Below are positions 1,267 through 61,622 of a stretch of 64,000 nucleotides of DNA, piece after piece. Every line of letters begins with the position of its first letter. The stretch's first letter is position 1. Under the pieces are notes generated by a model. That model ran no database searches. It was not told the DNA's origin and saw only the letters and a program-made list of their open reading frames with translations. The DNA is taken from assembly GCA_023105745.1 (NCBI GenBank), contig JALGQZ010000015.1:23789499-23853498 (forward strand). The letters run 5' to 3'. The stretch comes from Austropuccinia psidii. Lineage: Eukaryota > Basidiomycota > Pucciniomycetes > Pucciniales > Sphaerophragmiaceae. The translations under genes and the position numbers were made by a program.

Positions 1267-2160
1267 ATGAACAATTAAGATCCAATATACGAACTTAGGA
1301 AAAGCATCCCAACACTATCTGAGGAAAACTACCCAGAATGGAGGCTTTGTATATCAATCTACCTAAGACAGAAGAAGCTGTTGTCATACTGCAACAAGCC
1401 AATCACTTCAGCATTGGATGCCGCAAAGCCGACTAAGGCAGAAAGCGATGAACTGGATGCAAGAAATGAGGCCTGTGCCCTAATAACAAGCACACTAGAC
1501 TCCCAAAAATTCTCTGAACTCTTCAATGAGGTAAATTCTCAAAATAGTCACAAACTCTGGAAGATAATAAACGAATTGTTTGCTTCCTCCTCTTTCAATA
1601 GTAAAGCCAGAGTATGGAGTTGGTTTCTCAAAGTCACATATCAGAATGACCTTAGAACATTCATCTCAGAATGTCGTCAATGTCTCAACAAAATCTCCTC
1701 AGTAGGACTGGAGGTTGGAGACATAATCTTAGCATTCACCATCCTCACTAAACTTCCTGAAGAATTCCAACCCCTAATTGAGAAAAGCACTCTAAATTCC
1801 AAACAACAAGGAAATCCCAACAATGTACTAAAAACACTCCATAAAAAGGCTTTAAAAGGGGAAGCACTATCAAGTAAGTCATCTAAGGCTGTAGCTCTCA
1901 ATCGCAAAACATTTCCATCAAAAACTGTTCACTACTGTGCAAATGGTAAGCACAACCCACTAGTAGAAAGCCACGGAACCAAAAAATGTTGGAAACTGCA
2001 CACAGAACTCAGGTCAGAGAGAAGGAAAAAAGAAGCTTAATCAAACTTTACCCTTGCTCAAGCTCTCCTAACCCAAAAGGGAAACTAACCGACCACCGCT
2101 TCTCTAGTCCTGGATACAGGAGCATCAAATCATATGTTTAATGACAAACGCTTTTCCTAA
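1267..2160 (+). pseudogene. Copia Gag and aspartic protease remnant
   Basis: Reading starts at an ATG at 1267 and is interrupted after three codons by TAA (1276). It then runs open to a TAA at 2038-2040. The region carries the Gag core of the UBN2/Copia type (EENYPEW near the start, later FTILTKLPEEFQPL). It ends in a zinc-binding-like tail, CANGKHNP..SHGTKKCWKLH, of the kind seen in basidiomycete Copia Gags. In the same frame after two more stops comes the protease active site LDTGASNHMF at about 2113-2142, followed by another TAA. The catalytic Asp-Thr-Gly is intact, but the chain is broken on both sides. Confidence 0.85.
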
Positions 2161-2494
2161 TCAATCTCACCATGCTCTACAAAAATCTCAACCGGATGCA
2201 ATAGTTCATCCCTAAAGGCAGAAGCCATCGGAACTGCCAAAATCATCAACAGGCAAGGAAAAACCTGGAATCTGCATAACAGCCTATATGTACCAGCGCT
2301 AACTATTAATCTACTCTCCCCAACTCACCTCGCCTCCTCAGAAACCAGAATCAACAAGTAGAAGGAGCACTACAACGTCTACCTAGATAGGGAGATCAAG
2401 CCACTTTATATGTTCCATAGCTCACTCAGTACTGGAAACAAAAATACAACTACCGAAAGATCTATGTTATCACACCAAGCACCATAGTCAACCA

Positions 2495-3742
2495 TGGCAT
2501 GATCAACTGGGGCACATGAACAATTCGGGGATCACAAAGCTAGTTAACAGCCAAAAAGGCAAGCAAACCTGTGATATCTGTCTTAAAGGAAAAATAACTG
2601 CCTTGCCTTTCTCCTCAAAATTTGTACCTGCAACCTCCAATCTAGAAAACATCCATCTCAACCTGTGTGGACCCATATCCACACCAAACGTATCTGGATA
2701 TCAATACTTCATGATTATTATTGATCAATTCAGCAAGTTCATCTCAGTCAAACTGCTGAAACACAAAAACAAAGCATTCACCCACTTCAAAGAATTCAAA
2801 AATGCTGCGAAAAACTTTCACTCAAAGAAAATCAAGAGAATGATCTCAGATGGAGGAGGTGAGCTCAAGAACAACTATTTTGAGAAATTATGCTCCAAAA
2901 GCGGCATTAAACGTTGTTTGAGTCCAGCTTACACCCCGCAACACAATGGTATCTCCGAGAGAGGAAACCGCTCCATTATTGAAAAAGCTAGATTCCTGCT
3001 GATCCAATTCTCTCTTCCAATGAAATTTTGGGGTGAAGCCATAGCAACGGCCGCTTTCCTATGCAACCTAATCCCAAAAAAAGACAACAACACAAGGTTG
3101 TTTGAAAACTGGTACCACCAAAAACCTCCCCTAAAACACTTAAAACCTTTCGGATGCCAATCCCGGATCCAAATTTCACCACAATTATGTACTCATAAGT
3201 TTGCCCCTTTCTCATGGGAAGGAGTACCTCTAGGCTTTGAAAACAATGGATCCAGTTATAGAATACTCAAAAGTTGGGAACAAGCAGTGGTAATAAGCAG
3301 GCACGTGGTTTTTGACGAAACAACTTTCCATTCAATTTCCTCTCCAAACACCATTTCAACCAGCCCTGATCTCAGATCTCTTTTTCTGTACTCCAACAGA
3401 AACCCAAGAGAGTCAACAGACACAGCCCTTCCAGAACCAATCTCTGAGCAGTTGGAACTACTGACCGAAGAGGAAGAAGAGCAAGAGTCCTTATCAGAAG
3501 CTCCAGAATTTCAACCCAGCAGAATCAAAGTCATTGACCAAAGGCATCCCACTCTGATCAGTAGTGATATCAACCCAGCAAACATCCTCTCATTTTGTAG
3601 AAGACCAAGAACCAACCTCACTCAAACCATGGTAGATGAAGTCCCAAATTTCTACAACAAAGCCCTGTCCGGACTGAACAAGGAGAAGTGGGACAAAGCA
3701 ATTCATACCGAGCTCAGGAACATGGAGAAACTGAAGGTATAG
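2495..3742 (+). pseudogene. Copia integrase with first catalytic Asp changed to Asn
   Basis: The frame opens with the pre-integrase zinc-finger signature WHDQLGHM (2495) and CDICLKGK. The core follows: IHLNLCGP, then MISDGGGEL, then YTPQHNGISERGNR. Copia integrases have Asp in the HxDLxGP position, so the Asn at 2660-2662 removes the first residue of the D,D,E triad; the other two are present. About 400 codons are open to a stop at 3740-3742. The C-terminal part is an acidic linker leading into the RT, whose usual start (W..A...E...L) is visible at about 3690-3730. This frame differs from that of Gag, so a frameshift lies between 2160 and 2495. Confidence 0.88.
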
Positions 3743-5121: not shown

Positions 5122-5470
5122 TGTTAGATTTCCACAGCTCTTCCCCCGACTGAAACCTAATCTAAGTATAGGTTAGGGTCTGGTCCACGTCTCCCTCCTA
5201 TTTATTTTCTCCCGCTCCCTTCCTCTTACGGCATATGACCATCCCTTTCTAGTTTGCTCCTCTTCCCCTTCACATAAAAAAGAAAAAAACTCCCACTTTT
5301 CATTCAACACCTTTTTTCTTTTTGTTTTGTATCTCTCTCTACTCACAAGTCTTCTGTTTCATACTATGGTCTCGTGAGCCCACTAATACCATAAGACCAT
5401 CACCTTTGCATCTGCTGTTTATCACTCCTCATTCATTGTTTGTCCTCAGTTTGAAATTTTAAAACCTCAA
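5122..5470 (+). repeat. Copia 3' LTR
   Basis: It is the direct-repeat partner of 901-1245. The polypurine tract AAGGGGGAG occupies 5113-5121, immediately before TGTTAG, as expected for plus-strand priming. Confidence 0.9.
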
Positions 5471-5968
5471 TAATGAAGAGGTGGGACAATGGATGATAAG
5501 CTAATTAGCTATATCAGATTGTGGTACAATACTTTTTGGGTGGTAGGGAATGTGAGCCTTTAAGATATGACTATATATTCAAAAAGGCCACAAAATAACT
5601 TTACAATAGTAAGAATTAAAAATACTATCTTAAAATAAGTAGAAATGTCATAAATACACATAAATTCTTCATTACCTCACAATCTAATGAATAAACATGT
5701 GAAAAAATCTTGAAAACAGATTCCCCATGGTAAAATACACATATAACATTTTTATGTCATATCTGTAAAAATAATGCTTACTGTTTAATCAGTAGAAATC
5801 CAATAAAAAGGCATAAATTCTTGTTTATCTCAGAAACCAATGGAGCACAATGGGAAATTAATTGCACCATTTCATTCCCCATTCAATGTGAACATTTTTT
5901 GTCCACTCTTTAAATTAAATACCTAAGTAAATAACCTGAATATATGCACTTTTATGATCAGCACATAT
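5471..5968 (+). repeat. G0 3' untranslated end and truncated 3' LTR
   Basis: 5471-5550 aligns with the segment before the G3 3' LTR, including ATCAGATTGTGGTACAAT and the polypurine GGTAGGGAA. The LTR begins TGTGAGCC at 5551 and follows the G3 LTR (37108 onward) for about 415 bp with substitutions and small indels. It stops abruptly at 5968, where an LTR of a different family begins. The rest of the G0 LTR is not found after 7382. Confidence 0.85.
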
Positions 5969-7601: not shown

Positions 7602-9790
7602 TGTAAGGTTTGTCTATGAAACTCTTGATAATAGTAACAATATCAAGAGTACTATGACTGTCCTCAGTGAAAAAATATAATATAATGAAATATTATAACC
7701 ACAAATTTAAATATAATTATTAAAAATAATTATATAAAAAAATAAATTTAATTATTATTATAATAATATAATAATAAAAAAAAATATAATAATTATAATA
7801 AATTATAATTATTCTATTATTGTTATAGTCACTGACAGTTATAACAATAAGAAGTGTAAAGCTCTTAATGAGACAATTACACGTGGAAAATAAGAATATT
7901 AACCACTTATAAATAATAAAAATATTATTTATAAAAAGAATTAATCACACACTGTGCAGAAATAATTCTTTATAGAATAAAATTCTATATAAAAAAACTA
8001 ATAATAGATAAAAAAAATATAGAACTTTAAAGAAAACTTACTTATAATATTTATTTAATACAACAAGTTATAAAACAACAGTTATTATATTAAATAATAA
8101 TTATAAGTTAAAAACACGCCAAAAATCAATAAAATCAAAGATAAAACAACTTTTTATACTAAAATTTATGATTAAAGAGTTTTTGAGAGGAATTTGTGGA
8201 TTTTAAAAGATATTTAAGATGATAATTTTATATAATAAAATTTATTATAGATGATTACAACAATAATCTGAATTCTATGACTTCAATTCTTTAATTTAAT
8301 AAATAAAGAATAAAAATAACTTAAGAATTACTTTTAATAATAAGATTTTATATTTAATAAATCTTTACCTGTTTAAATGTCTAATATGATTGGATTGATT
8401 ATGAATGATGGACAAAAACAGTGATGAAAAGACTCTTTTTATGTCTACAGAGCAGCTCTCATGATTCATAATGGATGTAGAGGGCGTGCTCAGGTCAAAA
8501 CTGAAAAACCATGCTTAAAAATTAAGTTCTTAACTTAAGGCAACTTATTTTTACTTCCAATTTAAAGTTACCAGTGTTATTCTTAACTCCAAGTAACTTT
8601 AATCCTCATTTAGTTTAATTATTTTAAGTTTTAATATAAAATAAGTTTATTTATATTAAAGTTCATCACATGAACAACATAAAATCAGAGTTTCAAGCAG
8701 AAATCTCTTAAACTGAATTTTTAATTAATTTTTAAAGAAATCATAATTTTCTTTAAGCTTAATTAAAAAGTAATTTTCCAGGCTAATTACCCAGGAAACC
8801 TATTGATAAAAGATACTTAAAATTTAATTTATATATTGATAATATTAAATTCTAAGCTATGTGAAATTTTCAAGCAAATCCATTAAGATTTGGATTTTTA
8901 ATGAATTTTTGAAGTTATTACTATTTTTCCACGTAAAATAGCAATACACACAAAACCTTAAGTTTTGATAAGGTTTTGATGATTGAAACCTTAAAGTTTT
9001 AAGCTTATTTAAGCTTTTTAAGCTTGATTAAGCTTTGACAGTTCTTAAAACCTTGATTCCAAGCCTGCTTATTGGGATTTACCCTCTTGGCAGCTTGAAA
9101 TTCCTGTCCAATTTAGGATAAAACCAATTTAAACCTTCAGGTTGGATCAAAGTCTAATCTTAAAGTTTAAATAAGGTTTAAAATCCTCCAATACAGGTGG
9201 ACAACCTTAATTGAATCCTTGCAGATCCAAAAAGTTGGGTACCCCAGCTCTATTTGGTCTTTTTCCTTTGTCCCACCTTTTTGCGTGGATTTTGCCCTTT
9301 TATTTATTTAAAGCCATACTATGGCCTTAAACCCTTTAAATTGAGCTCACGCAGGATTTACATTCTGTATGGCAAATCCTTAGCCAATTCAGTAAATATA
9401 CACCACACCTCAATTTTAACTAAAATTTTGGTAAAGTTGCATAAACCTTATGTAACTTTAAATTTAAGCTTAATTAAGCTTAAATTTAACAATTTTAAAA
9501 AAATGTTAAAAAAGTTACATTAGTACTGTGAGATTCTTAAATCTTCTAATAACACAAGAAATAAGTGTTTTTGGGTATAACACCCTATGGGTGTACCCTA
9601 GGTTATTTTTGGTGTAGAATCCAAAAATGACATAATAATTATAACTTTGTTTATCCAAAAAAAAGTTATACTTATTTTTTATTATTTTTTATTTTAAATT
9701 CAACTAAAAAGTCTGTTTAAGACAAATTTAATTGTTTATAAAATCATTTGTGGCCTTATGGGTATGTTAAACATACCTCACAGGCTCACA
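7602..9790 (-). repeat. G1 3' LTR
   Basis: Read on the minus strand it begins TGTGAGCCTGTGAGG (at 9790) and ends AAACCTTACA (at 7602). It has the same length as the partner at 14933-17121. It is extremely AT-rich. The polypurine tract (minus-strand GGTGGTAGGGAA) occupies 9791-9802. Confidence 0.95.
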
Positions 9791-12700
9791 TTCCCTACCA
9801 CCAAAAAAAATTGTACCACAATTTTCCTTTGTAGTATACCATCAAACAAATGAAATCTTCCATTATCATAAGATGTTTTCCAAATATCATCCAGAGAATT
9901 AGCCAAGGCTACATCTTTACAATCTTTGTCAAGTAGAGCAGTAAGAATATGACAATTCTTATCTTGCCTGTAGCTTTCTCTAACCTCTTCAAAGAATTCT
10001 GTTCCAACATCTGTGATATTGATTCCTTCAATTGGGATTTGAGGTTCTGCACTTGTAGGAACATAGGCAGGATTATCAGGTGTATTGGGTAATGCCCATC
10101 TACTTAAGCCATCAGCATTCTTATGAATATTTCCAGCTTTATGTACTATGGTCATGCTGCCTCTATACTCCTGTATAGCAATCTGCCATCTGAACATGTG
10201 TCTGTTTGGAGTCTTCATGTTAAGAAGTGATTTTACTGCATTACAATCAGTAATTACTTCAAACACACTACCATCAAGATAATAATGAAGTTTTTCCAGA
10301 GCCCAAACAAGGCAAAGGCACTCCATTTGGCTAGCTCCATATCTTGCCTCAGTAGGTTTAATTTGTCTTGAAATAAAACAAACTGGACCTTCATAAGGTT
10401 TGTCATTGACAATTTGAACTTGATGAAGAGCAGCTCCTAAACCATCACCACATGCATCAATATACAGCTTAAAAGGAAGTTTCCAGTCTGGCATCAATAA
10501 TAATGGTGCATTGGTCAAGGCATACTTGATTTTATCATATGCTTGAATTCTCTCCTGTGTCATTTCAAAAACAGTTTGTTGATCACAAATTCTGTATAAT
10601 GATCTGGCATGGATTGCAAAATCTTTAAGGTGTTGCCTGTAATAGCTGGCAAATCCTAAGAAAGACATCATCTCTTTTTTGTTCTGGGGCATTTGTTTGA
10701 GTAAAACTGCAGCCACTTTGTTTTTGTCAACACCAAGGCTTAGTCCTGATACTACATGTCCCAGAGCTTTCAACTCATGAAACCCAAAATTACATTTTTT
10801 AAGAGAAATTTTCATGTTCACTTGTAGAATTTTCTTAAGTACTAATGAAAGTCTCTCTAAATGTGATTGCCAGGTTTCTGAACAAATGATAATGTCATCA
10901 ATATAAATGATTAACCATCCCTCTGATAATTCATGTGGGAATATGGTATTCATCATTCTTTGATAATGAGAGGGTGCATTTTTAATACCAAAAGGCATCC
11001 TCAAATATTCATAAATACCACAATGGGCTATTATTCTCAATAATTTCCTTGCATGAGGTGTTAAAACATTCTGATGGAAGCCTTTAAGAGCATCCATGGA
11101 AGTAATAAACTTTGCTTTGGATAATTGAGTCAAAGTCTCATGGATTCTAGGGATTGGATACCTGTCTGGAATAGTATAGGTGTTCAATGCCCTAAAATCC
11201 CCAACCATCCTTGACTTATCATTATGCCAAGTAATGATTACTGGAGTTGTGACTTCCACTTCCTCATTGTGTCCAACTTTTCTAAGAACTCCCAGTTTCA
11301 TTAGTTCATGAATATGACTTTCTAATGCTTCTCTAGCCCTAGGGCTAGCTGGGTAAGCTGGTCTTCTTAATAGTGGGGGATAAGGTCTCTCCACGTTAAG
11401 CATGATATCCACTTCATGGCCTTTTATAGCCCCAAGTGGTTCATCATCAGAAGCAAAGGCTTTTTGAAATTGAAATAAAATTTCAATAAGTTCTTTCTTC
11501 ATTTCTGGTGTTAATTCAGGACTAATTTGTGCTTCACTTAATTGATCTGACACAAATTTTTCTTTATTAACATTTTTTACTTGTTGAATGACAGTAATTT
11601 CTTTTCTTTCTGGAGAAAAAGCAAATTTTTGCCTTTTATTTTCCCCTATAGTGAAATATCTGTCCTTATAATTATTAATATCAATACCATAGATATTGAG
11701 ATAATCATTCCCAAGTATAAAGTGTTGTGAAGTACAATTATTCATAACAACAAATTCAGCTTTCAATCTCATACTTCCTGCAGGGTGAGGAAATATTATT
11801 GTAGCTTCAAATATACCCAAAGGATGCATATTCTGTCTAGCACTGCTGAATTTTACACCTTCAATTGGCATCAACTTGTCTTGCCAATTGGTATAAATTT
11901 TGTCAAGATAATCTTTCTCAACACAAGTGCAAAAAGCACCTGAGTCAAGATGTATCTTGGCTTCTGTGTTATTTATCACAATATTAGTGATACAAGATGA
12001 CCCAGCTGTATAACCTTTACCTCTGGCAGGTTTGGTTTTTTGCATTCTGGCATCTTGCACATGTATGAGATCCATACATTCATCACTGTACTGTGGTAAG
12101 TGAGTATGTACCTCAGTGACCTCAAAAGAAACATTAATATTCTCTATACTAAGTTCTTCTGATGTTTCTTCTTCTTCTGAAGGTTCAGAATCACTTTCAT
12201 GTAAAGCTACATCAGTTTCTTTTGTGTCTTCCACTTTTTCAACACTTATCTCATTGACTCTTGTCTTTTTTGGACAAGTGTTTGCTAAATGAGATGTGCT
12301 TCCACATTTATGACATTTCAAAGGAGGTCTGTCATGTGGTTTATTTGGTTTTGAAATTGGTTTCCCACTAGTCTTGTTGTCTATTGGGGGTTTATACCAA
12401 TTTCTTCCAATTTTTGTTCTAGTAGTGATATCCTCCATAGCATTGATATAATCTTCTGTAGAGCAAGGCTCAATACATCTGCTTCTTATAGCATGCTCAA
12501 GGTCACCACCACACTTTCTTAATATCCTTTTATGTACCATTGGTTCAGACATATCAGGATGAAGGGCAGTTAATCTGTCCTTCTGTTTAAGAAACCAAGT
12601 CATGGGCCTGTCCCTCTCAATATTAAAAATGGCTTCCTCAAAAGAATTTTCCATTCTAAATCTCCAGGAATCATTTGCCCATTTGGAAATAACTTGTTCT

Positions 12701-14217
12701 TTCCACCAAGGCCAGGAATGTTTTCCATGGTCTTGTCTCATTTTATAATACCATTTCTTAGCTGATTTGGTAAATAATGAGTGTAATCTGGCACTTATGT
12801 ATTCATCTGGTATGTTAAAGTCTTCTTTGAACATATCAATTGTTTTCATAAATTCCATATGATTATATTCTCCTTCACCACTGAAGGTTGGCCATTCCTC
12901 TAATCTTGGAATGTCTTTGTAATTGCAAGCAGTTTCCACATCATTACTTGAAATTGTATGATGTAAATCATTATTCAAGTTAAGATCATTTCTGTCAAGA
13001 AATGGTGTGGATTGCCTTGGCAATTCATTTTTTAGTGATATATTATTAATACTTGATTGAATATCTTCTTTCAATTCAAGTCTTGCTTTATCACTTTTTT
13101 CCAATTGTTCTTGAAAAAGAGCTGCATTGTGGCCAGTTGAATTTTCCAAGTTTTGAACTTGTATTTTCAATTCTCTTAACTGTCCAGTTATAAAAGAAAT
13201 TGAATTCTCATCTGGTTGATTGAGTAAGGTAACTTTATGCTCAAGTCTTTCACAAATTTGCGTCAAAGACAAAATATTTGCCTTATTAACATTTTCAAGG
13301 CCAATAATGGTCTTTTGTTGGTCTTTAACTTGTACTATCTCATTGCCCAGCTTTTGTTGGACATGATCAAATGCTTTAAATTTTGCCATAATTTCTTTAT
13401 TACAAGATTCAAAGTAAGTTACAAGCTTTACAGGGTCTATTTCTTTGGAAAGGATTGGTTCAATCTTTCCTCCTCCTTGTTTTTGAATTCCATCAAAGTT
13501 CTTGCCATATTGAACACATTGTCCATGGCTGTCTTTTCCTTCTTTGGAATTCTGTAATTCTGAGGGTAGGGCTTGTTCCACTTGGGCTTTGCCTTTCCCT
13601 TTGCCTTTTGCTTGCCCTTCTGGTTGGTCTTTGGGGCTTGCTTGGGCTTGTTTGGCACTTGTTGAGGCGGATTTTTGCTGGTGGATGCTTGAGGAGCTTC
13701 CACTTGGCTGTTGTCCTTGCCCTGGGCCAACTTCTTCTTCTGGTCTTCTGATAACATGCTTTGGTTTTTCAACCAAGCTTTTATCTGTTGGACTTGTCCT
13801 TTGACAGACATTGGTGTCCAACCCAATAGAAGATCTTCTGTCTTTTCTGGCCCCATGAACTTCTTCACTTGAAGATAAGAGTTCATGGTGCCTATCCAAA
13901 GACTTGGAAGGAGTTCCCACTCTTGTTGTTTTGACGCCAGGAACCAGTTTTTCCATTGGGATTGATAAATTTCCACAGTTGCCTGTTGGAAATGGTTCAG
14001 GTCTAACAGCAATAGCAGTTATGTCAGCTTCTGGACTCTCAATAAGAGGTTCAAAGGTGCTGGCTAACCTTTGGGAACTGGTGGAAGTTCTGGCATCCTC
14101 CATTTGTGCCTCTCCTCTGGGAGGACATTCTTGCCTTTTGGATTTATGGCTGGAATGTCCTGGTCCAGATCCATTTGATTGGATGGAGTAGTTGCTTCCA
14201 CTTCTAGTAGGAGTCAT
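9778..14217 (-). CDS. G1 Gag-Pol polyprotein (Gag, protease, RT, RNase H; no integrase)
   Basis: This is one open frame of 1,479 codons from ATG at 14217. Residues 1-260 are low-complexity (Ser/Gly/Lys/Gln) and overlap the accessory gene. About 270-420 is coiled-coil-like. About 440-600 is the Gag core ([29 protein letters not shown]), and about 635-650 is a CCHC knuckle [14 protein letters not shown]. The protease signature is [11 protein letters not shown] (about 750). RT shows [37 protein letters not shown] and YIDDII; RNase H shows [34 protein letters not shown] and [10 protein letters not shown]. All catalytic acids are present. Beyond RNase H the frame enters the integrase N-terminal linker, then runs out as WW-like codons across the polypurine tract into the LTR. 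This is an intact but integrase-less polyprotein. Confidence 0.93.
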
Positions 14218-14382
14218 TTCACGTCAATTTTAATAAAAATTAGAGAAAAAGTGGATTGAATTCACCTGCAGGACCTTTAAAGGGCTCTTTGGTTATTAAA
14301 CCCCTTGGTGCTGGGCTGGTTTGAATTTCAATACTGGACTCTGAGGCTTCAGAGTCTGAAGAACTTTCTCTGATGGAAGACA
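13437..14382 (-). CDS. G1 overlapping spliced accessory protein (alternative frame)
   Basis: Proposed exons are 14382-14266, 14203-14069 and 14002-13437. The introns are 62 nt and 66 nt (both GT-AG) and all junctions are phase 1. The first exon starts right after CTAG with TG, so an upstream exon ending in A would complete ATG. The product would be about 272 residues: an acidic Ser-rich start ([10 protein letters not shown]), SNQMDLD, then a conserved core VEIYQSQ...WELLP...GTMNS...KKF...GWTP, a Lys/Pro/Gln-rich linker, and a C-terminus [15 protein letters not shown]...PKK. The core and C-terminus match the G3 counterpart, which is the main evidence that this frame is real. No known family is recognised. 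It lies in the +1 frame over the Gag-Pol N-terminus, and the Gag-Pol ATG (14217) is inside intron 1. Confidence 0.7.
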
Positions 14383-14913
14383 CTAGAGAAAATTTAAAAA
14401 TATAAGTTATTTTATCAAATAATAAAAATAACTTATAAACTCAACTTATTGAATAAAGTTGTTTTTATGTAATTTATGGCAAATTACGTCAAAAATAAAG
14501 AAAAATGTCTAAGATAAAAAGAAAAAATGTTTTTAGTAAAGATTTTTATTTTTAAAGATTTTTTATTTGATTTATTATTTTCTTTAAAGAAATAATAATT
14601 ATGCAATTAAAAAGTTAATTAATCAAAATTATATTATTATTCACTTTATACTAGAATAACTCAAAGAATAAATTTCAAGTCTGTGATGTGAAAAAGCCAC
14701 TAGTTAGACAAAAGAAATTTATTCCAAGTCACTCAATAGTATATTGTTTCAAACAATATTCTTAAGAAAAAATAACTTTATTAATATTATAAAGATTATT
14801 TATAAGGGATAAGTCCCAAAAAGCCAATATTAAGACAAATATGGCAATTTTACGTCAAAAAACAGTAAAATAAGGTCTAGAATATGATTTATGTCCCAAA
14901 AATTGGTTTAAAA

Positions 14914-14932
14914 TCACGGCCAGGCCCCCAAA
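14914..14932 (-). other. G1 primer-binding-site candidate
   Basis: On the minus strand TTTGGGGGCCTGGCCGTGA directly follows the 5' LTR end TTACA. The same core, TTTGGGGGCCTGGC, follows the 5' LTRs of G2, G4 and G5, and a mutated form follows that of G3. Position and conservation fit a primer-binding site. I could not name the tRNA, and the discriminator base it implies is unusual. Confidence 0.7.
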
Positions 14933-17121
14933 TGTAAGGTTTGTCTATGAAACTCTTGATAATAGTAACAATATCAAGAGTACTATGACTGTCCTCAGTA
15001 GAAAAATATAATATAATGAAATATTATAACCACAAATTTAAATATAATTATTAAAAATAATTATATAAAAAAATAAATTTAATTATTATTATAATAATAT
15101 AATAATAAAAAAAAATATAATAATTATAATAAATTATAATTATTCTATTATTGTTATAGTCACTGACAGTTATAACAATAAGAAGTGTAAAGCTCTTAAT
15201 GAGACAATTACACGTGGAAAATAAGAATATTAACCACTTATAAATAATAAAAATATTATTTATAAAAAGAATTAATCACACACTGTGCAGAAATAATTCT
15301 TTATAGAATAAAATTCTATATAAAAAAACTAATAATAGATAAAAAAAATATAGAACTTTAAAGAAAACTTACTTATAATATTTATTTAATACAACAAGTT
15401 ATAAAACAACAGTTATTATATTAAATAATAATTATAAGTTAAAAACACGCCAAAAATCAATAAAATCAAAGATAAAACAACTTTTTATACTAAAATTTAT
15501 GATTAAAGAGTTTTTGAGAGGAATTTGTGGATTTTAAAAGATATTTAAGATGATAATTTTATATAATAAAATTTATTATAGATGATTACAACAATAATCT
15601 GAATTCTATGACTTCAATTCTTTAATTTAATAAATAAAGAATAAAAATAACTTAAGAATTACTTTTAATAATAAGATTTTATATTTAATAAATCTTTACC
15701 TGTTTAAATGTCTAATATGATTGGATTGATTATGAATGATGGACAAAAACAGTGATGAAAAGACTCTTTTTATGTCTACAGAGCAGCTCTCATGATTCAT
15801 AATGGATGTAGAGGGCGTGCTCAGGTCAAAACTGAAAAACCATGCTTAAAAATTAAGTTCTTAACTTAAGGCAACTTATTTTTACTTCCAATTTAAAGTT
15901 ACCAGTGTTATTCTTAACTCCAAGTAACTTTAATCCTCATTTAGTTTAATTATTTTAAGTTTTAATATAAAATAAGTTTATTTATATTAAAGTTCATCAC
16001 ATGAACAACATAAAATCAGAGTTTCAAGCAGAAATCTCTTAAACTGAATTTTTAATTAATTTTTAAAGAAATCATAATTTTCTTTAAGCTTAATTAAAAA
16101 GTAATTTTCCAGGCTAATTACCCAGGAAACCTATTAATAAAAGATACTTAAAATTTAATTTATATATTGATAATATTAAATTCTAAGCTATGTGAAATTT
16201 TCAAGCAAATCCATTAAGATTTGGATTTTTAATGAATTTTTGAAGTTATTACTATTTTTCCACGTAAAATAGCAATACACACAAAACCTTAAGTTTTGAT
16301 AAGGTTTTGATGATTGAAACCTTAAAGTTTTAAGCTTATTTAAGCTTTTTAAGCTTGATTAAGCTTTGACAGTTCTTAAAACCTTGATTCCAAGCCTGCT
16401 TATTGGGATTTACCCTCTTGGCAGCTTGAAATTCCTGTCCAATTTAGGATAAAACCAATTTAAACCTTCAGGTTGGATCAAAGTCTAATCTTAAAGTTTA
16501 AATAAGGTTGAAAATCCTCCAATACAGGTGGACAACCTTAATTGAATCCTTGCAGATCCAAAAAGTTGGGTACCCCAGCTCTATTTGGTCTTTTTCCTTT
16601 GTCCCACCTTTTTGCGTGGATTTTGCCCTTTTATTTATTTAAAGCCATACTATGGCCTTAAACCCTTTAAATTGAGCTCACGCAGGATTTACATTCTGTA
16701 TGGCAAATCCTTAGCCAATTCAGTAAATATACACCACACCTCAATTTTAACTAAAATTTTGGTAAAGTTGCATAAACCTTATGTAACTTTAAATTTAAGC
16801 TTAATTAAGCTTAAATTTAACAATTTTAAAAAAATGTTAAAAAAGTTACATTAGTACTGTGAGATTCTTAAATCTTCTAATAACACAAGAAATAAGTGTT
16901 TTTGGGTATAACACCCTATGGGTGTACCCTAGGTTATTTTTGGTGTAGAATCCAAAAATGACATAATAATTATAACTTTGTTTATCCAAAAAAAAGTTAT
17001 ACTTATTTTTTATTATTTTTTATTTTAAATTCAACTAAAAAGTCTGTTTAAGACAAATTTAATTGTTTATAAAATCATTTGTGGCCTTATGGGTATGTTA
17101 AACATACCTCACAGGCTCACA
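14933..17121 (-). repeat. G1 5' LTR
   Basis: It is 2,189 bp, the same length as 7602-9790. The differences I find are two adjacent changes near 15000, one near 16136 and one near 16510. The near identity places the insertion as recent. The open stretch at 16585-16854 is a duplicate of one in the other LTR and is not a gene. Confidence 0.95.
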
Positions 17122-18456: not shown

Positions 18457-20436
18457 TGTGAACCTTTGAGATATGACCACATACCCAAAAAGGTCACAAG
18501 AAATATTTAAAAGAATTATACATTAATAATAATTACCTTAAAGCTACAAAAATGCCATAAATTGGCATAAACCTTGGTTTAACTTAAAGACCAATGAATA
18601 AACATGTGAAATAAATTATACCATTTCATTCCCCATGGTAAAATACACATATACCATTTTTATGGCATATCTGTAAAGTCAATATTTAATGAGTTATAAG
18701 TAATAATACCTTATAAAAAACATAAATCCTTAATTCTTTCAAATACCAATGAAGCAACATGTAAAATAAATGGTACCATTGGATTCTCCATTAAACTCCA
18801 CACATAAAACAATTAAGAATCTAATCTCCAAAGTCAATACTTAAGGAGTTGAGCTGAATATATGCAATTTTTTGGTCAATGCATATATTCAAGGATTTTA
18901 GCAAATATCTTTTTAAATATGCATGATAGAGGGATGAACCAAAAAAAAAGTCATCACGTAATTACTGTAGAAATACAGAAATTAACTTTATTTCACAACT
19001 TATAAACAAGGTTAAAACCTGTAAGGGATTATTGATTAAAATCAATAGAGCTGTTGACCACTTTGTTGTGAAAGTGGTCCAAACTTAAAAAGAAGTAGAC
19101 AGTTGGATTATACTAGTTTATTTTTGAAGAATGATGTATTTATTATTATAATTTTCAAGGTATAAACCCTTGAAAACATGGTTTGAAGTTTAAAATATTA
19201 AATTTTGACAGAAAAGATGAGTTACAAGAAAAATCATCAAAAATAGAGTTTTGATGATGTAATGAAATGCTCTTGGCAGCATAATAAGGTTATGCCAAGG
19301 TATTATAATTCACTCTCAATTGCTGTAGCATTTGAAACTTAAAATTTATCAAGAATCAAAGTTTGATCTTAATTTGATCATTTATGATCACTTACTGTAA
19401 CCTTAAATTAGGTTTAACAGACATATGGGAGATACAATTGGTGAATACTATTAGTTTATGATTAAAACTAATAAAATACACAAATTCTGGGGTTCTTCCA
19501 AGCCTTGACGCCATCAAACTTAGAGTTATAGTGATAACTCTAAATAATGGCGTAATAATGAGATAATATGGTTTGATCATGATGTGATCATCACCAAACC
19601 TTCAACTATTGATCAATTCCAGTGGATATGATCAGTGCACGTCTACTAGAAGCCTTTTGGACTCTAGGAGGAAGGAATTTAATATAAATAGAGCTCTTTT
19701 TACTCTATTTCCCCCTCAGACGCTTACAAAACATTAAATCATTAAATAAAAATGTAATTTCTTTATTCTTTATATATAAAACCTTTATATTATTAAAGAC
19801 CGAAGATAATCTTATAGTAATCTTCATCTTTGACGTTATTATTGCAATTATTCAATTGTTTTGTTTAAATTTCCCTTAAAAACCTCAATTCGACATAAAA
19901 CCAAGAAAATTTGTAATTTCTCTTAAATTGTATTGTAACTACAATTTAAATAAGTTGAATTGACATTTCTAGTTGTAAAATCATTCAAAATTATTATATT
20001 AAGCATTAAAAGTAGGTTATTTCTCTCATTATAATAATTTTTCTCCATTATTACTTTTAATAATTCTATAATTGATATAAATAGTATTTATATTAATTTA
20101 TAGCTTTAATATTGGTAATATTATTGTTATTAATTGTTTTTTATTAATAAAAAACAATTTTTTAAGCCTTTATTATTTGTTGGTAACAATAATGAAGTTC
20201 TTTTAAATATATAAATTATCTTATATTAGTATATTCATTTTATATATATTTTTTTTTATAATATAAATTATATTATTATATTTATTTAATAATATAATTA
20301 TTTTATGCCATACTTATAATAATTCTTTATTATTATAATTATTTTTATCTTATTTATTTCATTTATAAGGACATTCATAGTACAATAAGTGAAATATTAG
20401 TAATTTTTAATCATTGTTTCATATTCAAACCTTAAA
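18457..20436 (+). repeat. G3 5' LTR
   Basis: It pairs with 37108-39089, with several per cent divergence by eye and small indels, so this is an older insertion than G1 or G2. The stretch after about 19690 is extremely AT-rich and is probably transcribed leader. Confidence 0.92.
19683..19691 (+). promoter_or_regulatory. TATA-like box in G3 LTR
   Basis: TATAAATAG lies in a less AT-rich part of the LTR, and the same motif is kept in the 3' copy near 38338. Its position about two thirds of the way along the LTR suits a U3 promoter. Surrounding AT-richness lowers confidence. Confidence 0.45.
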
Positions 20437-20900
20437 TTTGTGGCCCTGGCCATGATCTTTACTCTAAAAGACCTTGAAAAGATTCTAATTGGGGTTATCC
20501 AATAATAAATTATAATTATAATAATAAAATTCTATAATAATATTATATTTATTGCTTTTAAATACTATTGAGGCATTTGGAAAGTAATTGTACTGCCTTA
20601 CATGTGGTTTTTCACATCCTTAGACTTGTAAGAACTTTCTTTGAGTGACTCTAGTAATTAAAAAAGATATTTCATAAATAAAGAATAAATTTATATGATA
20701 AATTAATTTCATAAAAGAATCATATTCATTTTTGTATTTTTTAAAAATAAAAATATGAAGAACAAAAAAAATTATAAATAAAAAACAATAAAAACAAAGT
20801 TATATTTTTTATTCATTTCTTTATTTATTTTCATTTTTTAAGATATAAAAGAAATTTTGTTTGTGGAAAATTGACATATCTTACCAAAAATAAGACTTTT
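20437..20900 (+). other. G3 leader (5' part) with mutated primer-binding motif
   Basis: It starts TTTGTGGCCCTGGCCATGA, a mutated form of the motif seen after the other 5' LTRs. It shares a segment (TTTTTCACATC..AGACTTG...CTTTGAGT) with the G1 leader. No coding potential is seen. The leader resumes at 31005 after G2 and ends at the splice acceptor at 31039. CTTTT at 20896-20900 is the left duplication of G2. Confidence 0.75.
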
Positions 20901-22402
20901 TGTCAGCCTGTGACTCCAAACAGAGCACTAGCATGACATCCAACATACCATAAATAATGGTATGACAAGTATTGAACAAACATAGTCAATACAGGTAATA
21001 ATTAAGAGAAAACAATCCTCTTACATTAAACACCAACCTTATCCAAACAGAATAAGGAAACCTAGAGGTGAATAAACAAGTCAAAACCCTTATTTTCACC
21101 TCTCATCTAACTTATGCATATTTAAGTTATCCTATACAAAAATGGTATTTTTCTTAAAGCTCACATAGAGAGCTACACAATGATATCATCCATTTTGTTG
21201 TGACACCACTACAACTGGAGATACCATATAACCTCATTTTCAAAACCAAGTCCCCCTGAAAGTCAAAGAGGGCTTGTACAAAACTGTACAAAAGTATAAC
21301 CAAATTAAAGATCTCAACAAGAGCTTTAATTTGAGACACCTTAGACCTCTGTATCTCTTAAATTGACTGAGGGATCTTGGTTCAAAGGTTTAATAACCAA
21401 AATACAGATATTCTGAAAATAAGAAAATAAACAAACCCCTGTAGCTTTGGCATACACTCATACAACTGTACAGTGTCATATACCAAACTGTAGGGCTAAT
21501 CAAGCCCTACGAAGCTGTATCATCAGAATACAGATATCTTCCAAATTGAAGAAGATATCTAGCATGGAAGTTTTTGAAGCCTCATACTGATGTACAAAAT
21601 TACATCCAAAAACTTAAAACCCTTATAACTTTTGCTATTTGCAAGAAGGGTAAACATGAAGCATACCAAATTGAAGAGCTCATTAAGCCCTTCAATTCTG
21701 TGCTCTTAGTTTCTTGATATCTCAAAAACTGACTGAGATATCTTGGTTGGAAGTATTTTGACCAATACTGGTCTGTACCAAACCTGTACCAACTAGTACA
21801 GCCTTGATACTTAAAATAATGGTTATTTAAAGCTTAAACCCGCCCAGAATGACCAATATTAATCATACAGACACCAGAACAACGTCATCCAAGTGCTGAC
21901 GTGGCAGGTGAAAGGTTTTTTCACCCTGTATTGATCCAGAATGATCATTTGTGGTTCCAAAACCACAATTCTGTCTATATTGACGTCAGAATTGAGGATC
22001 TAGAACCACAGACTGACCACTGGAGTGAAAATTTTCACTCCTCTGACGTGTGAAGAGTTAATAACTCTCGACAGTCTTGGAAGATATAAAAAGGAGGGTT
22101 TTTCCCTTGAAAACCCATCATCTTATCTTACCTTACCATTATTCTTACGTGACAAGACTATTATTCATCAGTAGTGTCCTTAGAATTATTTAAGATATAA
22201 TTAGAATATGATTATTGTAGTGTTTCTTTACAGTCAAAGATATTAGAGTATTGCAACCCAGGTCCTCAATAGACTCATCACCACTGTTACCACGTAGCAG
22301 TAGGACCTGAAGATTTAATTTTTTATTTATTTTGACGTGTCACAGTCATAGTACTAGCTTGTATTTACTATTTTTAAGCTACTACATAGACTCACCCTGA
22401 CA
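20901..22402 (+). repeat. G2 5' LTR
   Basis: It pairs with 29497-30999, with substitutions spread along the length and one T-run length change. Its ends share TGTCAGCCTGTGACTC and CCTGACA with the G4/G5 LTRs, but the middle is different. Confidence 0.95.
22085..22094 (+). promoter_or_regulatory. TATA box in G2 LTR
   Basis: TATAAAAAGG follows a moderately GC-rich stretch with three TGACGT(G/C) motifs upstream (CRE-like, e.g. at about 21898, 21983 and 22046). The same box is retained in the 3' LTR near 30682. G4 has the related GATAAAAAGG at the equivalent place. Transcription should start shortly downstream, in the CCATCATCTTATC region. Confidence 0.6.
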
Positions 22403-22421
22403 TTTTGGGGGCCTGGCCGTG
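22403..22421 (+). other. G2 primer-binding-site candidate
   Basis: TTTTGGGGGCCTGGCCGTG follows the LTR end TGACA directly, as in G4 (44079) and G5 (59891). Confidence 0.7.
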
Positions 22422-22496
22422 GTTTTTCAACCTTATTGGACGTGTTTGAACTGAATTAGGCATAAAATTCAGTCATTTAAAAGATATTTTACTAAC

Positions 22497-24326
22497 AGTA
22501 AGTAAAAATTTCAAATTTTTTTTCATCTTTATCATTATTTTTTAGAATCATATACTATATATACAAATTTTTCCTCCAAAAAATATATATTATAAATATT
22601 TTTTGTTGAGAGTAAGAGTACATATCCTCTTTCTTATTATATTGCAATAATTTCCACGTAATTTGATAATAATACAACAGTATTATTCAAATTTCAATAA
22701 AAATAATAATATACAAACAGTATATTATTCATTTTACTATTATTTTTCACCAAAGTGCGTGAAAATTAATATAGAAACAATTTATTAATAAATAATTAAT
22801 AAATATTAAATGATAAAATAATTTTTTATTATTTATAAGGAATATTTTAATTAAATATTTCCTTTAAAACAAGATATCACTCAAATTGACGTGAAAACTT
22901 GTAATTAATTGATATTTTTAATCAATATCAAGTGTTATAATAAATATTATCTATAATATTTATAATAACAAATCCAATATATTATAATTTAATAAATTTG
23001 ACGTGTTTACATAAAAACACAATAATATCCAAGTGAATCATTCACAAAACACTTGGATATTACAGTTTTCACTTATAAAACATAAGTGAAAAACTCAAAA
23101 ACTGTTATTTTTCAATAAACAAAACATAAAAAAAAAAAAAACCTCAAAAATTTCGAAAAATAACAGTAGAATTGAATATAATCATTTTGTTTTATCATAA
23201 AATACTGATATACAATCTGAAATATCTTTCCTGAATAGTGGAAAAAGACTATATTCCACTAGAAACCCAGTCACAAAGAAAACCATCTGTGACAGCCTCA
23301 GAAGACAGAGAAGTGCTGCCAAAAACCAAGGGCAAGCAGAAAAGGCACAGTGAAGTGACAATCAACTCAAAAGATTGGACACCAATAGCCATGCCAAGGG
23401 CCAAAAAACCCAGAAAAGGTCCAACAAAACCAGTTGGATCACCAAAACAGATTGAGAAACAGAAAATCACTGTTATCAACCCAGTTGTAAACTCTAAAGG
23501 CAAATTGCCAAAGAGTATAGACCATAAATTTGTACAAGGGCCTGATAAAGGTAAATAAACCTTGAAAAATACAACATTTTTTATTGTCTGTCATTTTTTA
23601 ACATTGTTAACATGACACCTCCACTTCTTAGAGATCTTGGATTCCCAAGAAATCAACCAGAACACTGGCCAAGAAGACACAGAGGAAGAAGAACTGGAGC
23701 AAATGACCAGCAAAGGACTTACCATCAGGGAACTCCTGCCCAAGGTCCTGTTCCAAATCAAATTCAACCCAGAAGTCCAACCAAGAGATTGGACAGATGC
23801 AGAACAGGTCCTCCAAATACACAAACTCCTGAGAGACCTCTTCACATGGAGCATGGACAACAAAATGTTCACTATGGCAGCATCATGGGCAGAAGTGGGG
23901 ATAACAACCCAGAAGATCTGTCTCAAGCAAATGGCTTGGATGGAACTTATGACAGAAATGCAAGGTTGGAATCCCAACAAGAATTTCAAACCCTTAGAAG
24001 AAAGAGCAACCAGAATCAAAGAGAACCAGGCAGCCATACAAGCCATAGAGAGATCTTGGCACAAGGAAGAGCCCAGTCAGATTCAGGTACCCCCAGAAAT
24101 GGAAGGAGAAGTCCCATCTTCCCCCCAACAATCCAGCAGTTCCAGGCCCTACAAGCCAAAGGAAACTTCATCCAAGGCTCCCCAACCCTTCCAGGTAGTT
24201 TCGAACAGGAGAAAAGGAGCCCAAGGGAAAAACAAAACTTCTTTCAACCAGAGGAAGAAAGAAGCAGACCCATTGATGAAAAAGCTGATGGACTTAGTCC
24301 AAGAAGTACACAAAAGCAAGAAATAG
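22497..24326 (+). CDS. G2 overlapping spliced accessory protein
   Basis: Proposed structure: a leader exon ends in A at 22497 before GTAAGT; a leader intron covers 22498-23238; exon 23239-23550; an 81-nt GT-AG intron 23551-23631; exon 23632-24326. The ATG would be assembled across the first junction (A|TG). The product is about 335 residues. It begins EKDYIPLETQSQ, is basic and Lys-rich in the first 100 residues, and keeps KITVINPVVNSKGKLPKS just before the intron. An acidic patch (EDTEEEELEQ) follows, then a core LRDLFTWSMDNKMF...GWNPNKNF..LEERATRIKENQA, and a Lys-rich C-terminus ending VHKSKK. G4 and G5 share the same blocks. The exon 23632-24326 lies in the +1 frame relative to Gag-Pol. 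No known domain is recognised. Confidence 0.7.
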
Positions 24327-27300
24327 TTGTACCTACAAATAGTTATGATAGTTCTGACTCAATAGACCCAGAATTAATGACTTAAACTACAATCCACACT
24401 CATGAGTTTGAAAACAAATTCACATGGACCAAATTGGCCCAATTCATGGATTGGACATATGAAACCTCAGGAAAAATGAGGACAGAAATGGAAACATTGA
24501 AAGAAGAAAATTCTTTCCAAGGAACAGTCATTAAAGACTTAAATACAAATCTGGCCAAATTTGGACAGAATTTGAAAAAACTAACAGACAGTTGAATTCA
24601 ATTCTAGAAGAACAACAAACTGTGAGGAGGGATCTGAGCAATATCCAGCAGCAGCAGGATAACCTTGACAAAGAAATTGATTACCTCTATGACAGGGAAG
24701 ACAATCAATACCCTCCAACACAAGGTCAGCCTACTACCTCTACAAAATTGAAAGAAGAGGATAAAGACTATGACCAGGAACCTGAATATCAGATTCCAAA
24801 GTTAAGATCAGAGTCAGTGTACCAAGATGGGGAAAATCTCAACTATTCAGAGAAACAGGCACTAAAACAGTTACCAGAAGTAACAAACTGGCCAAAGTTC
24901 TCAGGAATTGGGGAATATGACCATATGGAGATCATTGACTATATTGATGGACTCTTTGTTGATGTCCCAAAGATACCAGACTACTGGATCACAACAAGAC
25001 TTAACACAGCATTCAGAGGCCATGCAAACATATGGTATACTGAGATGAAAGAAATACATGGCAGGAAAAGCTGGCCATGGTGGAGGAACCAGATTATACA
25101 AGAGTATAGCAATGGTAGTTGGATCTGGCAAAAGACCATGTCCTTTTAAAGTGATAGATACTCCACAGAAAAAGACCCTTATGAATGGTGCCTCAAACAA
25201 ACAAAGAGGCTAAAAGCTATTGATCCCAATATGACAATAGAAATGAGAAACCATAAACTCCTAACAAAATTGCCAGGAGATCTAGAACATGCAGTCAAAT
25301 GCAGATGCAACAACATCAGCAGCATTGATGACATAGCAAATGTCATACAAGATGTGAGAAAGAAAACCTCCATAGGAAGGTACACATCCTATAAACCAAA
25401 CTTCAAAGACAAGAGGTCTGAAGTTAAAGAGACAAACAAAGAAAAAGGGAAAGAAACCCCAAAAAAGAAATATGTGTGCCACAACTGTGGATCACCAGAC
25501 CACTATGCCAACAATTGCACAAAACCAAAAAAGAAAATATATGCAATTGATGAAGAATCAGAAGAAGAACAAACAGGTGAAAAATCTGATTCTGACAGCA
25601 TGGGAAATGGTATGAGAGCAGAATCACAAAGTGAACCTGATACCATGGAAGAATACATAGTGGAATGCAATGAAGAAAGTTCACTTGACATACAACACAT
25701 TGAATTGGATTCAGGAATACCACAAATAACAACAGACAAAGAGCTCTGTAAGCACACACAGAATGCACAAACATTCCTGGTAACCCCAAATAGAGGGGTG
25801 GGATTCATTCATGGAACACCTACAAAATTGACAGTTTACATTGAGAACTGTAAACACCCAATGATCATTGACACAGGAGCAAGTTGCTCCATAGTGGCAA
25901 AAGAATACTTGGAACAACACTTCCCCAAATGGGAAGAAGAGATAATCCCAACAAAAGCTAGAAACTTTAAAAGTGCATCAGGCAAAATGCACTCACTGGG
26001 GACAATAATCAAAGAGATAATTATCCCACACCAAAAAGGAAATATCAGACTGGAACCTGAATTTGTAGTTCTAGAAAATGCACATGTACAAGGATTCTTA
26101 CTAGGTACAGAGTACCAAAGAATGTATGGCATGGATATTTGCAATAGTAAAAACAGATATCTTACCATAGGTACAAACAAAGACAAAAAATTTTCCTTTG
26201 ACATAAATCATGTAACAAATGATAACACCTTGAAAGAACTAGTGGAAGAATTCAAAGAAGCTCAATATGGCACTCAACTCACCAGTAAAATGAAACTCAA
26301 CTTACTGAAAGTATTGAGAAAACATAGAGAAGCTTTTGAAATAGGAGATGAACCACTAGGAAAAATCAAAGGACATGATATAGAATTATATCTAGATGTA
26401 GAAAGACCATATCCACCTATGCTTAGGAGACCACCATACCCAGCCAGCATGGAAACTAGGAAAGAAATTGAGAAACATATCAATGAACTCCTAGAAATGG
26501 GGGTAATAAGAAAAATAGGACATAATGAGATAGTAGAGGTCACTACACCAGTCCTTATAACTTGGCATGATGGTAAATCCAGACTATATGGTGACTTCAG
26601 GGCTTTGAATAATTACACCAAAGCAGACAGGTACCCCATCCCAAGGATACCACATGCACTAGATTAACTAGCAAAAGCCAAGTTCATTACAAAAATGGAT
26701 TGCATGAAAGGTTTCCACCAGAATGGGGTGAAACCAGATTCCATCAAACTGCTGAGAATTATATGCCATATGGGCATATATGAATATACTAGAATGCTAT
26801 TTGGCATTAAGAATGCACCAGCCCATTTTCAGAGGATGATGGATACCATATTTCAAGATGAAATTATGGAATGGTGGATGGTAGTGTACATTGATGATAT
26901 CATAATATACTCAGAAACATGGGAAGACCATGTGAGGAAAATTGATAAAATATTGGGAAAATGTACACCAATCAACATGAAGATATCTCTTAAAAAATGT
27001 AACTTTGGACAGCAAGAGCTGCTAGCCCTAGGACACAAAGTTTCAGGTTTGAGTCTAGCTATAGACCAAAATAAAGTTGCTGCAGTACTGAAGAAACCAG
27101 TACCAAAGAACATTAAGGAAATGCAATCTTTTTTGGGCTTTGCTACGTACTACAGAAGCCACATTAAGAACTTTGCACACATCACTAGTAGTCTATACAA
27201 ACTTTGCTCAAAGGATGTAGTCTTTGAAATCACCAAAGAAAGAGGGGATGCATTTGAGAAGATCAAACATGAACTGACCAATGCCCCTGTCCTGATGATG

Positions 27301-29472: not shown

Positions 29473-29496
29473 TGAGCCTTCTTTTGAGGGAGGGTA

Positions 29497-30999
29497 TGTC
29501 AGCCTGTGACTCAAAACAGAGCACTAGCATGACATCCAACATACCATAAATAATGGTATGACAAGTATTGAACAAACATAGTCAATACAGGTAATAATTA
29601 AGAGAAAACAATCCTCTTACATTAAACACCAACCTTATCCAAACAGAATAAGGAAACCTAGAGGTGAATAAACAAGTCAAAACCCTTATTTTCACCTCTC
29701 ATCTAACTTATGCATATTTAAGTTATCCTATACCAAAATGGTATTTTTCTTAAAGCTCACATAGAGAGCTACACAATGATATCATCCATGTTGTTGTAAC
29801 ACCACTACAACTGGAGATACCATATAACCTCATTTTCAAAACCAAGTCCCCCTGAAAGTCAAAGAGGGCTTGTACAAAACTGTACAAAAGTATAACCAAA
29901 TTAAAGATCTCAACAAGAGCTTTAATTTGAGACACCTTAGACCTCTGTATCTCTTAAATTGACTGAGGGATCTTGGTTCAAAGGTTTAATAACCAAAATA
30001 CAGATATTCTGAAAATAAGAAAATAAACAAACCCCTGTATCTTTGGCATACACTCATACAACTGTACAGTGTCATATACCAAACTGTAGGGCTAATCAAG
30101 CCCTACAAAGCTGTATCATCAGAATACAGATATCTTCCAAATTGAAGAAGATATCTAGCATGGAAGTTTTTGAAGCCTCATACTGATGTACAAAATTACA
30201 TCCAAAAACTTAAAACCCTTATAACTTTTGCTATTTGCAAGAAGGGTAAACATGAAGCATACCAAATTGAAGAGCTCATTAAGCCCTTCAATTCTGTGCT
30301 CTTAGTTTCTTGATATCTCAAAAACTGACTGAGATATCTTGGTTGGAAGTATTTTGACCAATACTGGTCTGTACCAAACCTGTACCAACTAGTACAGCCT
30401 TGATACTTAAAATAATGGTTATTTAAAGCTTAAACCCGCCCAGAATGACCAATATTGATCATACAGACACCAGAACAACGTCATCCAAGTGCTGACGTGG
30501 CAGGTGAAAGGTTTTTTTCACCCTGTATTGATCCAGAATGATCATTTGTGGTTCCAAAACCACAATTCTGTCTATATTGACGTCAGAATTGAGGATCTAG
30601 AACCACAGACTGACCACTGGAGTGAAAATTTTCACTCCTCTGACGTGTGAAGAGTGAATAGCTCTTGATAGTCTTGGAAGATATAAAAAGGAGAGTTTTT
30701 CCCTTGAAAACCCATCATCTTATCTTACCTTACCATTATTCTTACGTGACAAGACTGTTATTCATCAGTACTGTCCTTAGAATTATTTAAGATATAATTA
30801 GAATATAATTATTGTAGTGTTTCTTTACAGTCAAAGATATTAGAGCATTGCAACCCAGGTCCTCAATAGACTCATCACCACTGTTACCACGTAGCAGTAG
30901 GACCTGAAGATTTCATTTTTTATTTATTTTGACGTGTCACAGTCATAGTACTAGCTTGTATTTACTATTTTTAAGCTACTACATAGACTCACCCTGACA
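29497..30999 (+). repeat. G2 3' LTR
   Basis: It pairs with 20901-22402. The polypurine tract GAGGGAGGGTA immediately precedes it (29486-29496). Confidence 0.95.
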
Positions 31000-31039
31000 C
31001 TTTTTATATAGAAGACTGATATTTATTTGTTGTTTTTAG

Positions 31040-61285: not shown

Positions 61286-61622
61286 GGTGAACCAGACAGG
61301 GCCTACTCTGATTTTTTCAGGCTCACAAGAAGTAGACCAATCCAATTCTCCAGTGGCTTCACATCATTCATGAACCAGCAGATCAGTGGCCAAGAGTCAC
61401 CATTATTCACAATCCCAGGTAGTTTCCAGGAGAAGACAAGGATAAAAAGGAAAAAACAAGACTTCTTTCAGCCAAAGGCAGAGAGAGTCAGACCCAATGA
61501 TCTGCAAGCTTTTGGAATTGGTGAAAATAATTGTAGAATAAGGAGCCCCAATAGTGGAAATACTTCCCCCACTCAGAATGAACACAGTGTTGTTTTATCT
61601 GAGAGTAACTGTCACAACCATG

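Follow-up and report, generated by a model that had tools for sequence, protein, structure and literature searches.

Ty3/Gypsy-type elements in a 64-kb window (the whole stretch of DNA analysed, 64,000 nucleotides) from the genome of the myrtle rust fungus Austropuccinia psidii appear to carry a two-way start-codon switch that operates through splicing, a reading to which we assign, from the sequence, a probability of roughly three in four. RNA initiated in the LTR and left at full length would carry a leader of 1.3-1.5 kb, AUG-free in the youngest copy, and scanning ribosomes would first reach the Gag AUG, which lies inside intron 2 of an overlapping accessory gene; older copies seem to have gained other ATGs ahead of it. 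This unspliced RNA would double as the genome. Removal of introns 1 and 2 (plus intron 3 in the elements G1 and G3) would delete the Gag AUG, and the exon 1/exon 2 junction would then form a new first AUG, A|TG, opening a basic accessory protein of 245-335 aa that overlaps the N-terminal part of Gag in a different frame. The fuller version, which we judge reasonably probable, is a reciprocal switch behind an otherwise AUG-free leader: intron 1 splits the accessory AUG, the Gag-Pol AUG sits within intron 2, and two groups of elements preserve the arrangement. That the splices occur, that ribosomes reach the start codon by scanning and that the unspliced RNA serves as genome is what we infer from these features.

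A first-pass annotation had proposed that unspliced RNA gives Gag-Pol, whereas splicing drops the Gag AUG and brings the accessory frame together, and this part fits the sequence tests described below. Its claim that retention of the intron around the Gag ATG exposes the Gag start proved insufficient by itself: because splicing of intron 1 would create an accessory AUG upstream of the Gag AUG, intron 1 would have to be retained as well. Four features go beyond that annotation: an intron further upstream, the split A|TG, the AUG-poor leader and the third intron of G1 and G3.

Ty3/Gypsy elements in the window

The window contains four Ty3/Gypsy-type elements with an overlapping accessory gene, G1 (minus strand) and G2, G3 and G4 (plus strand), together with a fifth, decayed copy (G5) at 58.5-61.6 kb on the plus strand. 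All four matched reverse transcriptase (RT) and RNase H domains, with the RT of G3 under the Pfam cut-off. Integrase matches comprised a zinc-binding domain over the cut-off and a core domain under it in G3, and a Tf2-1-like SH3 domain as the sole match in the integrase region of G2 and G4; the domain search of the G1 Gag-Pol ORF found no integrase domain. Paired LTRs showed 99.8%, 98.8%, 93.3% and 95.8% identity in G1, G2, G3 and G4, and 5-bp target duplications were read, for G1 and G2 only, as TTATA flanking G1 and CTTTT flanking G2. From their RT-RNase H-integrase order, paired LTRs and target duplication, the elements are predicted to be Ty3/Gypsy LTR retrotransposons. RT-RNase H identity is 64.6-67.7% between G1 and G4 or G2, and 75-85% over pieces of G1 compared with G3.

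Among the four, only G1 retains an uninterrupted Gag-Pol ORF (9778-14217, minus strand; 1479 aa, with RT and RNase H found), the frames of G2, G3 and G4 being broken. G1 (9778-14217 and 7605-9800, minus strand) looks very young, and its Gag-Pol ORF stops near the start of the 3′ LTR. Since its LTRs are young yet no integrase domain was found, G1 may have been mobilised by the proteins of other copies.

Several further features were noted in the window. G2 (20901-30999) lies nested in G3, within its proposed intron 1, and has the CTTTT duplication at both flanks. A G2-like element remnant at 40920-41290 contains exon-2-like sequence, a decayed intron 2 and a Gag ATG kept at 41242. A Copia-type remnant with copia gag and integrase domains (1381-3742) is flanked by direct repeats at 901-1244 and 5122-5472, and a GGCC-rich segment at about 61620-63010, unlike its surroundings by eye, seems to interrupt G5. 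The motif TTTGGGGGCCTGGC is conserved directly after the 5′ LTR in G1 (about 14932, minus strand), G2 (22403), G4 (44079) and G5 (59891), and G3 carries a variant of it near 20437.

The Gag-Pol start codon lies inside a predicted accessory-gene intron

The first-pass annotation placed the Gag-Pol ATG within an intron of the accessory gene in all four elements, and a script reproduced these introns to the base. Intron 2 has GT-AG borders throughout and spans 14204-14265 in G1 (minus strand, 62 nt), 23551-23631 in G2 (81 nt), 31190-31277 in G3 (88 nt) and 44975-45042 in G4 (68 nt), the last three on the plus strand. Each contains a single ATG, which opens the Gag(-Pol) ORF: 14215-14217 on the minus strand in G1, and at 23612, 31267 and 45023 in G2, G3 and G4. 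The spacing of 10-20 bases to the acceptor that had been claimed is borne out, the distance from the Gag ATG to the following exon being 14, 20, 11 and 20 nt in G1, G2, G3 and G4. The nearest in-frame stop lies 3, 20, 2 and 7 codons upstream of the ATG in the same order, and intron 2 splits the accessory frame in phase 1 in all four elements.

In the decayed G5, exon 2 and a decayed intron 2 with a GTTGAA donor and without a Gag ATG occupy 60484-60848 (plus strand); the intron itself (60780-60848) has no ATG and, by reading, a CTG at the corresponding place. In the older remnant, the ATG at 41242 is followed by an exon-3-like start at 41262.

On the minus strand, the G1 accessory gene is predicted to comprise exon 2 (14266-14382, whose opening TG would complete A|TG), exon 3 (14069-14203), intron 3 (14003-14068, with a branch-like GCTGACA and within the open Gag frame) and exon 4 with the stop (13437-14002, also found by tblastn). 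The plus-strand G3 has the same plan, with exon 2 at 31040-31189, exon 3 at 31278-31409, a GC-AG type intron 3 at 31410-31463, likewise within the open Gag frame, and exon 4 with the stop at 31464-31918. A third intron is present in these two elements. G2 has exon 2 at 23239-23550 and exon 3, with the stop and overlapping Gag in a different frame, at 23632-24326; G4, a decayed copy, has exon 2 at 44675-44974, with one in-frame stop, and exon 3 at 45043-45707 (all plus strand). Joined, the exons give open frames of 272, 335 and 245 residues in G1, G2 and G3, while the joined frame contains one stop in G4 and several in G5.

If only intron 1 were removed, the frame of exon 2 would stop inside intron 2 after 47, 106 and 59 codons in G1, G2 and G3, and earlier in G4, at its own nonsense codon.

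Intron 1 would assemble a split accessory start codon

Exon 2 opens as AG|TG, directly after an acceptor-like AG, in all five elements. The proposed intron 1 spans 14383-15372 in G1 (minus strand; donor TTATAA|GTAAGT in U5, acceptor CTCTAG|TG), 22498-23238 in G2 (CTAACA|GTAAGT, GAATAG|TG), 20012-31039 in G3 (TTAAAA|GTAGGT, TTTTAG|TG, with the nested G2 inside), 44126-44674 in G4 (TTACAA|GTAAGT right after the primer-binding site, PBS; GATTCAG|TG) and 59946-60483 in G5 (GCAAAA|GTGAGT, TTTAG|TG), the last four on the plus strand. We chose these donors from the 41-56 GT sites that each leader offers. The leaders of G1, G2 and G4 each have one GTRAGT and that of G5 has two; G3 has none, and GTAGGT was used there.

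The base at -1 is A in all five chosen donors. In contrast, it is G in all six intron-2 and intron-3 donors of G1-G4, a comparison from which the decayed intron-2 donor of G5, with A at -1, was excluded. The chosen donors lie 332-408 nt from the start of the leader string near the TATA box; in the same numbering, the PBS lies at 314-345 nt in G2, G4 and G5 and at 757-838 nt in G1 and G3. With A at the donor and TG after the acceptor, splicing would build an A|TG start codon, and we infer that excision of intron 1, from donors whose position is itself derived from the sequence, assembles an accessory AUG that is absent from the unspliced RNA. A GTG start for the accessory frame on unspliced RNA was also considered and appears unlikely, as the TG sits after an acceptor-like stretch.

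The leader is depleted of AUG on the sense strand

In G1, no ATG occurs between the TATA box (15773) and the Gag AUG, an interval (14218-15770, minus strand) that takes in R-U5, the PBS, the leader, exon 2 and the start of intron 2. Dinucleotide shuffles (1000 per element) predicted 19.6 ATGs for these 1553 nt. The leaders of G2 (1522 nt), G3 (1479 nt) and G4 (1288 nt) contain 3, 7 and 4 ATGs against 23.2, 21.5 and 15.5 expected, and for each of G1-G4 none of the 1000 shuffles was as low; the G5 leader has 11 in 1262 nt, with 19.9 expected (P 0.006).

Ranked by depletion among trinucleotides, ATG comes first on the sense strand of G1, G2 and G3, second in G4 and fourth in G5. Its antisense ranks are 27/54, 7/59, 44/54, 17/60 and 20/56 from G1 to G5, with ATG mildly low on this strand of G2 as well, and each leader holds 23-29 antisense ATGs (25 CAT in that of G1). 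Directly upstream, the U3 of G1 contains 16 ATGs in 1350 nt, the last of which (15793) adjoins the TATA box.

The density of leader ATGs is ordered like LTR divergence in the four elements with LTR pairs (G1 0.2%, G2 1.2%, G4 4.2%, G3 6.7%; n=4). Five ATGs fall within the 5′ LTRs of G2, G3 and G4; three are missing from the partner LTR and two are common to both LTRs. A straightforward interpretation is that AUG is avoided ahead of Gag in active copies and acquired in decaying ones. As the counts for G2, G3, G4 and G5 show, this avoidance is not absolute. Sense-strand depletion from the TATA box to the Gag ATG implies that scanning of unspliced RNA should initiate at Gag; in G1, where no AUG precedes that of Gag, the accessory ORF thus has no AUG of its own on the unspliced RNA.

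Gene models from MF-1 and alternative routes to the two proteins

The G2 accessory query retrieved 12 proteins, all named Austropuccinia psidii MF-1, and the G1+G3 accessory alignment retrieved 808, of which the best 120 are all named A. psidii MF-1; identity reached 88% among the matches listed for the G1+G3 query. We compared our exon structures with these 132 MF-1 proteins (12 plus the 120 listed), all of which are predictions. At intron 2, eight of the 13 spanning models join the same codons and four are gapped; P0012, not counted among the eight, is aligned gap-free there and, by eye, continues in the Gag frame. P0011, which stops at the junction, is not one of the 13. At intron 3, 50 of the 54 spanning G1-type models are aligned gap-free, and the sole G3-type model that reaches it reads differently. 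Another group's gene finder, working on other copies, would thus have picked mostly the same sites.

The start of exon 2 could be compared in 13 models, excluding P0008, whose alignment opens at residue 8. The split codon is read as M in three, V in three and L in three, residues that NTG codons give; the remaining four begin one codon later and are all named partial, with P0013 and P0015 starting at the second codon of G1 exon 2. The six models with V or L imply predicted upstream exons ending in a base other than A, as would be expected if intron 2 were real and the accessory gene spliced, but translation started in an ordinary AUG-bearing exon upstream, such as one in a transcript that begins in U3 or flanking DNA. 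The PBS of G4 also has an AUG upstream of the donor, in the accessory frame by reading. Against such an exon, the G1 leader lacks any ATG from the TATA box onward, the upstream sequences of the MF-1 models differ among themselves, and all five chosen intron-1 donors end in A; we consider this origin of the accessory start unlikely.

Gag might also come from spliced RNA, with exon 2 joined to the Gag frame through an alternative acceptor and the intronic ATG incidental. By reading, P0011 and P0012 do pass from exon 2 to the Gag frame, and P0006 links accessory sequence to the Gag capsid region. However, the ATG is found in four of the five introns and in the remnant, an AUG-poor leader is expected only if unspliced RNA is scanned to the intronic ATG, and the models P0010, P0022 and P0132 begin at the Gag ATG instead, which together make this route improbable. 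Initiation of Gag at the intronic AUG of unspliced RNA, and of the accessory protein at A|TG, remains our preferred reading.

Both overlapping frames bear signatures of selection

Estimates of dN/dS were made with stop-containing codons skipped, G4 and G5 being decayed copies. For the accessory frame, exon 2 gave 0.41 (G1-G3), 0.31 (G2-G4), 0.25 (G2-G5) and 0.24 (G4-G5), where the G1-G3 value derives from 37 codons without a third-position excess. In the region overlapping Gag, the values were 0.28, 0.28 and 0.50 for G2-G4, G2-G5 and G4-G5; for G1-G3, dS was saturated and differences at codon positions 1, 2 and 3 numbered 68, 65 and 113. The accessory dN/dS therefore lies at 0.24-0.50 in seven of eight comparisons, those with a computable value. 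Read in the Gag frame, the same overlap gave 1.24, 1.36, 1.15 and 0.87 (G1-G3, G2-G4, G2-G5, G4-G5), and the amino acids of Gag look little constrained there.

The openness of the Gag frame was assessed by permuting the accessory codons synonymously and counting stops in the Gag frame. The expected numbers were 9.1, 6.7, 5.0 and 9.1 for G1, G2, G3 and G4, and the observed numbers 0, 0, 0 and 1 (0 of 20,000 permutations for G1; P 0.0001, 0.0015 and 0.0003 for G2, G3 and G4). The Gag frame has fewer stops than synonymous permutation predicts, and the accessory frame is under purifying selection. A Gag frame that is held open should be entered by translation before the overlap begins, and the natural place for this is the intronic ATG. 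Given a leader otherwise depleted of ATG on the sense strand and selection on both overlapping frames, the placement of this ATG within the intron is more than chance.

Properties of the accessory protein

The accessory proteins are basic, with a pI of 9.3-9.9 in all eight measured. The predicted model of the G1-type protein is helical and disordered in stretches, its confidence being modest (mean pLDDT 65.5), and that of the G2-type protein is not usable (mean pLDDT 35.3). A Pfam search gave nothing convincing (best E 0.0035, in 4 of 42 members, and 0.016), a search of solved chains with the accessory proteins gave a best E of 0.099 for one query and none for the other, and a fold search, run with the G1-type model only, gave a single, unconvincing match (E 9.5). 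Profile comparison detected no homology between the two accessory families (probability 0.4%); by eye, GW[NT]P and, after it, (Q/R)IK can be seen in both. Scans of viral contigs found no relative, one of the two queries being read in the Gag frame, and with Gag residues 1-450 as query no homologue scored among 7987 candidate proteins.

The poor predicted folds, the want of a convincing family match and the fact that all accessory homologues seen are predictions would suit an artefact in which a frame opposite Gag is open, its splice sites arose by chance and no protein is made. The dN/dS values of seven of the eight comparisons and the numerous homologues in MF-1 (12, and 808 of which the best 120 are listed) speak against it, and we regard it as highly improbable. 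For an accessory protein that is made, our guess, by analogy, is a Rev/CERV-like regulator of intron-containing RNA. A scan for Rev-like motifs placed sites resembling a nuclear localisation signal above shuffles in two of eight proteins, none of them clear, and a site resembling a nuclear export signal in one of eight, not above shuffles.

Comparison with known systems

Complex retroviruses share with the proposed switch a donor near the PBS, an unspliced RNA that is both genome and Gag-Pol mRNA, and spliced RNAs that give accessory proteins. They differ in the position of the Gag AUG, between the main donor and the acceptors, and in that the accessory frames lie mostly downstream in pol or env, not over the start of gag.

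The closely comparable Cer1 of Caenorhabditis elegans is likewise an LTR retrotransposon whose full-length RNA serves Gag-Pol and whose spliced mRNA gives an accessory protein, CERV, partly off the gag frame and needed for export of genomic RNA (PMC10309623). CERV exons 1-3 are in the gag frame and exon 4 is in a frame of its own, and the available portion of that report mentions neither an intronic Gag AUG nor a split accessory AUG (PMC10309623). The export role of CERV has been tested (PMC10309623), whereas any such role of the accessory protein described here is conjectural. For a splice-made AUG, the likeness is to EBNA-LP of Epstein-Barr virus, where joining an upstream exon to W1′ produces the start codon; this is a herpesvirus, and the part of the account available describes no competing AUG in a removed intron of genomic RNA (PMC12451641).

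Splicing also alters the protein made from the RNA of the LTR retrotransposons BARE1 and Drosophila copia, but the available text has the spliced RNA giving Gag alone, in BARE1 via a splice-made frameshift after gag and in copia by removal of nearly all of pol (PMC3735527). Additional ORFs have been discussed for plant elements (PMC7264820). The very large A. psidii genome consists mostly of elements of the Gypsy superfamily, and the accessible part of the genome paper describes no such accessory gene (PMC8063080). Among the open-access titles and openings of abstracts listed, none mentions an intronic Gag AUG or split accessory AUG for LTR retrotransposons.

If the switch is real, members of the Gypsy superfamily would regulate their expression by retrovirus-style splicing, following an unusually clean logic that can be read in the sequence alone. 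The separation of genomic RNA from accessory mRNA in elements of this kind would become open to testing, and one would have to ask how fungi export unspliced RNA from the nucleus. Precedents exist in these systems both for spliced accessory genes and for AUGs made by splicing; their combination in a two-way switch looks new.
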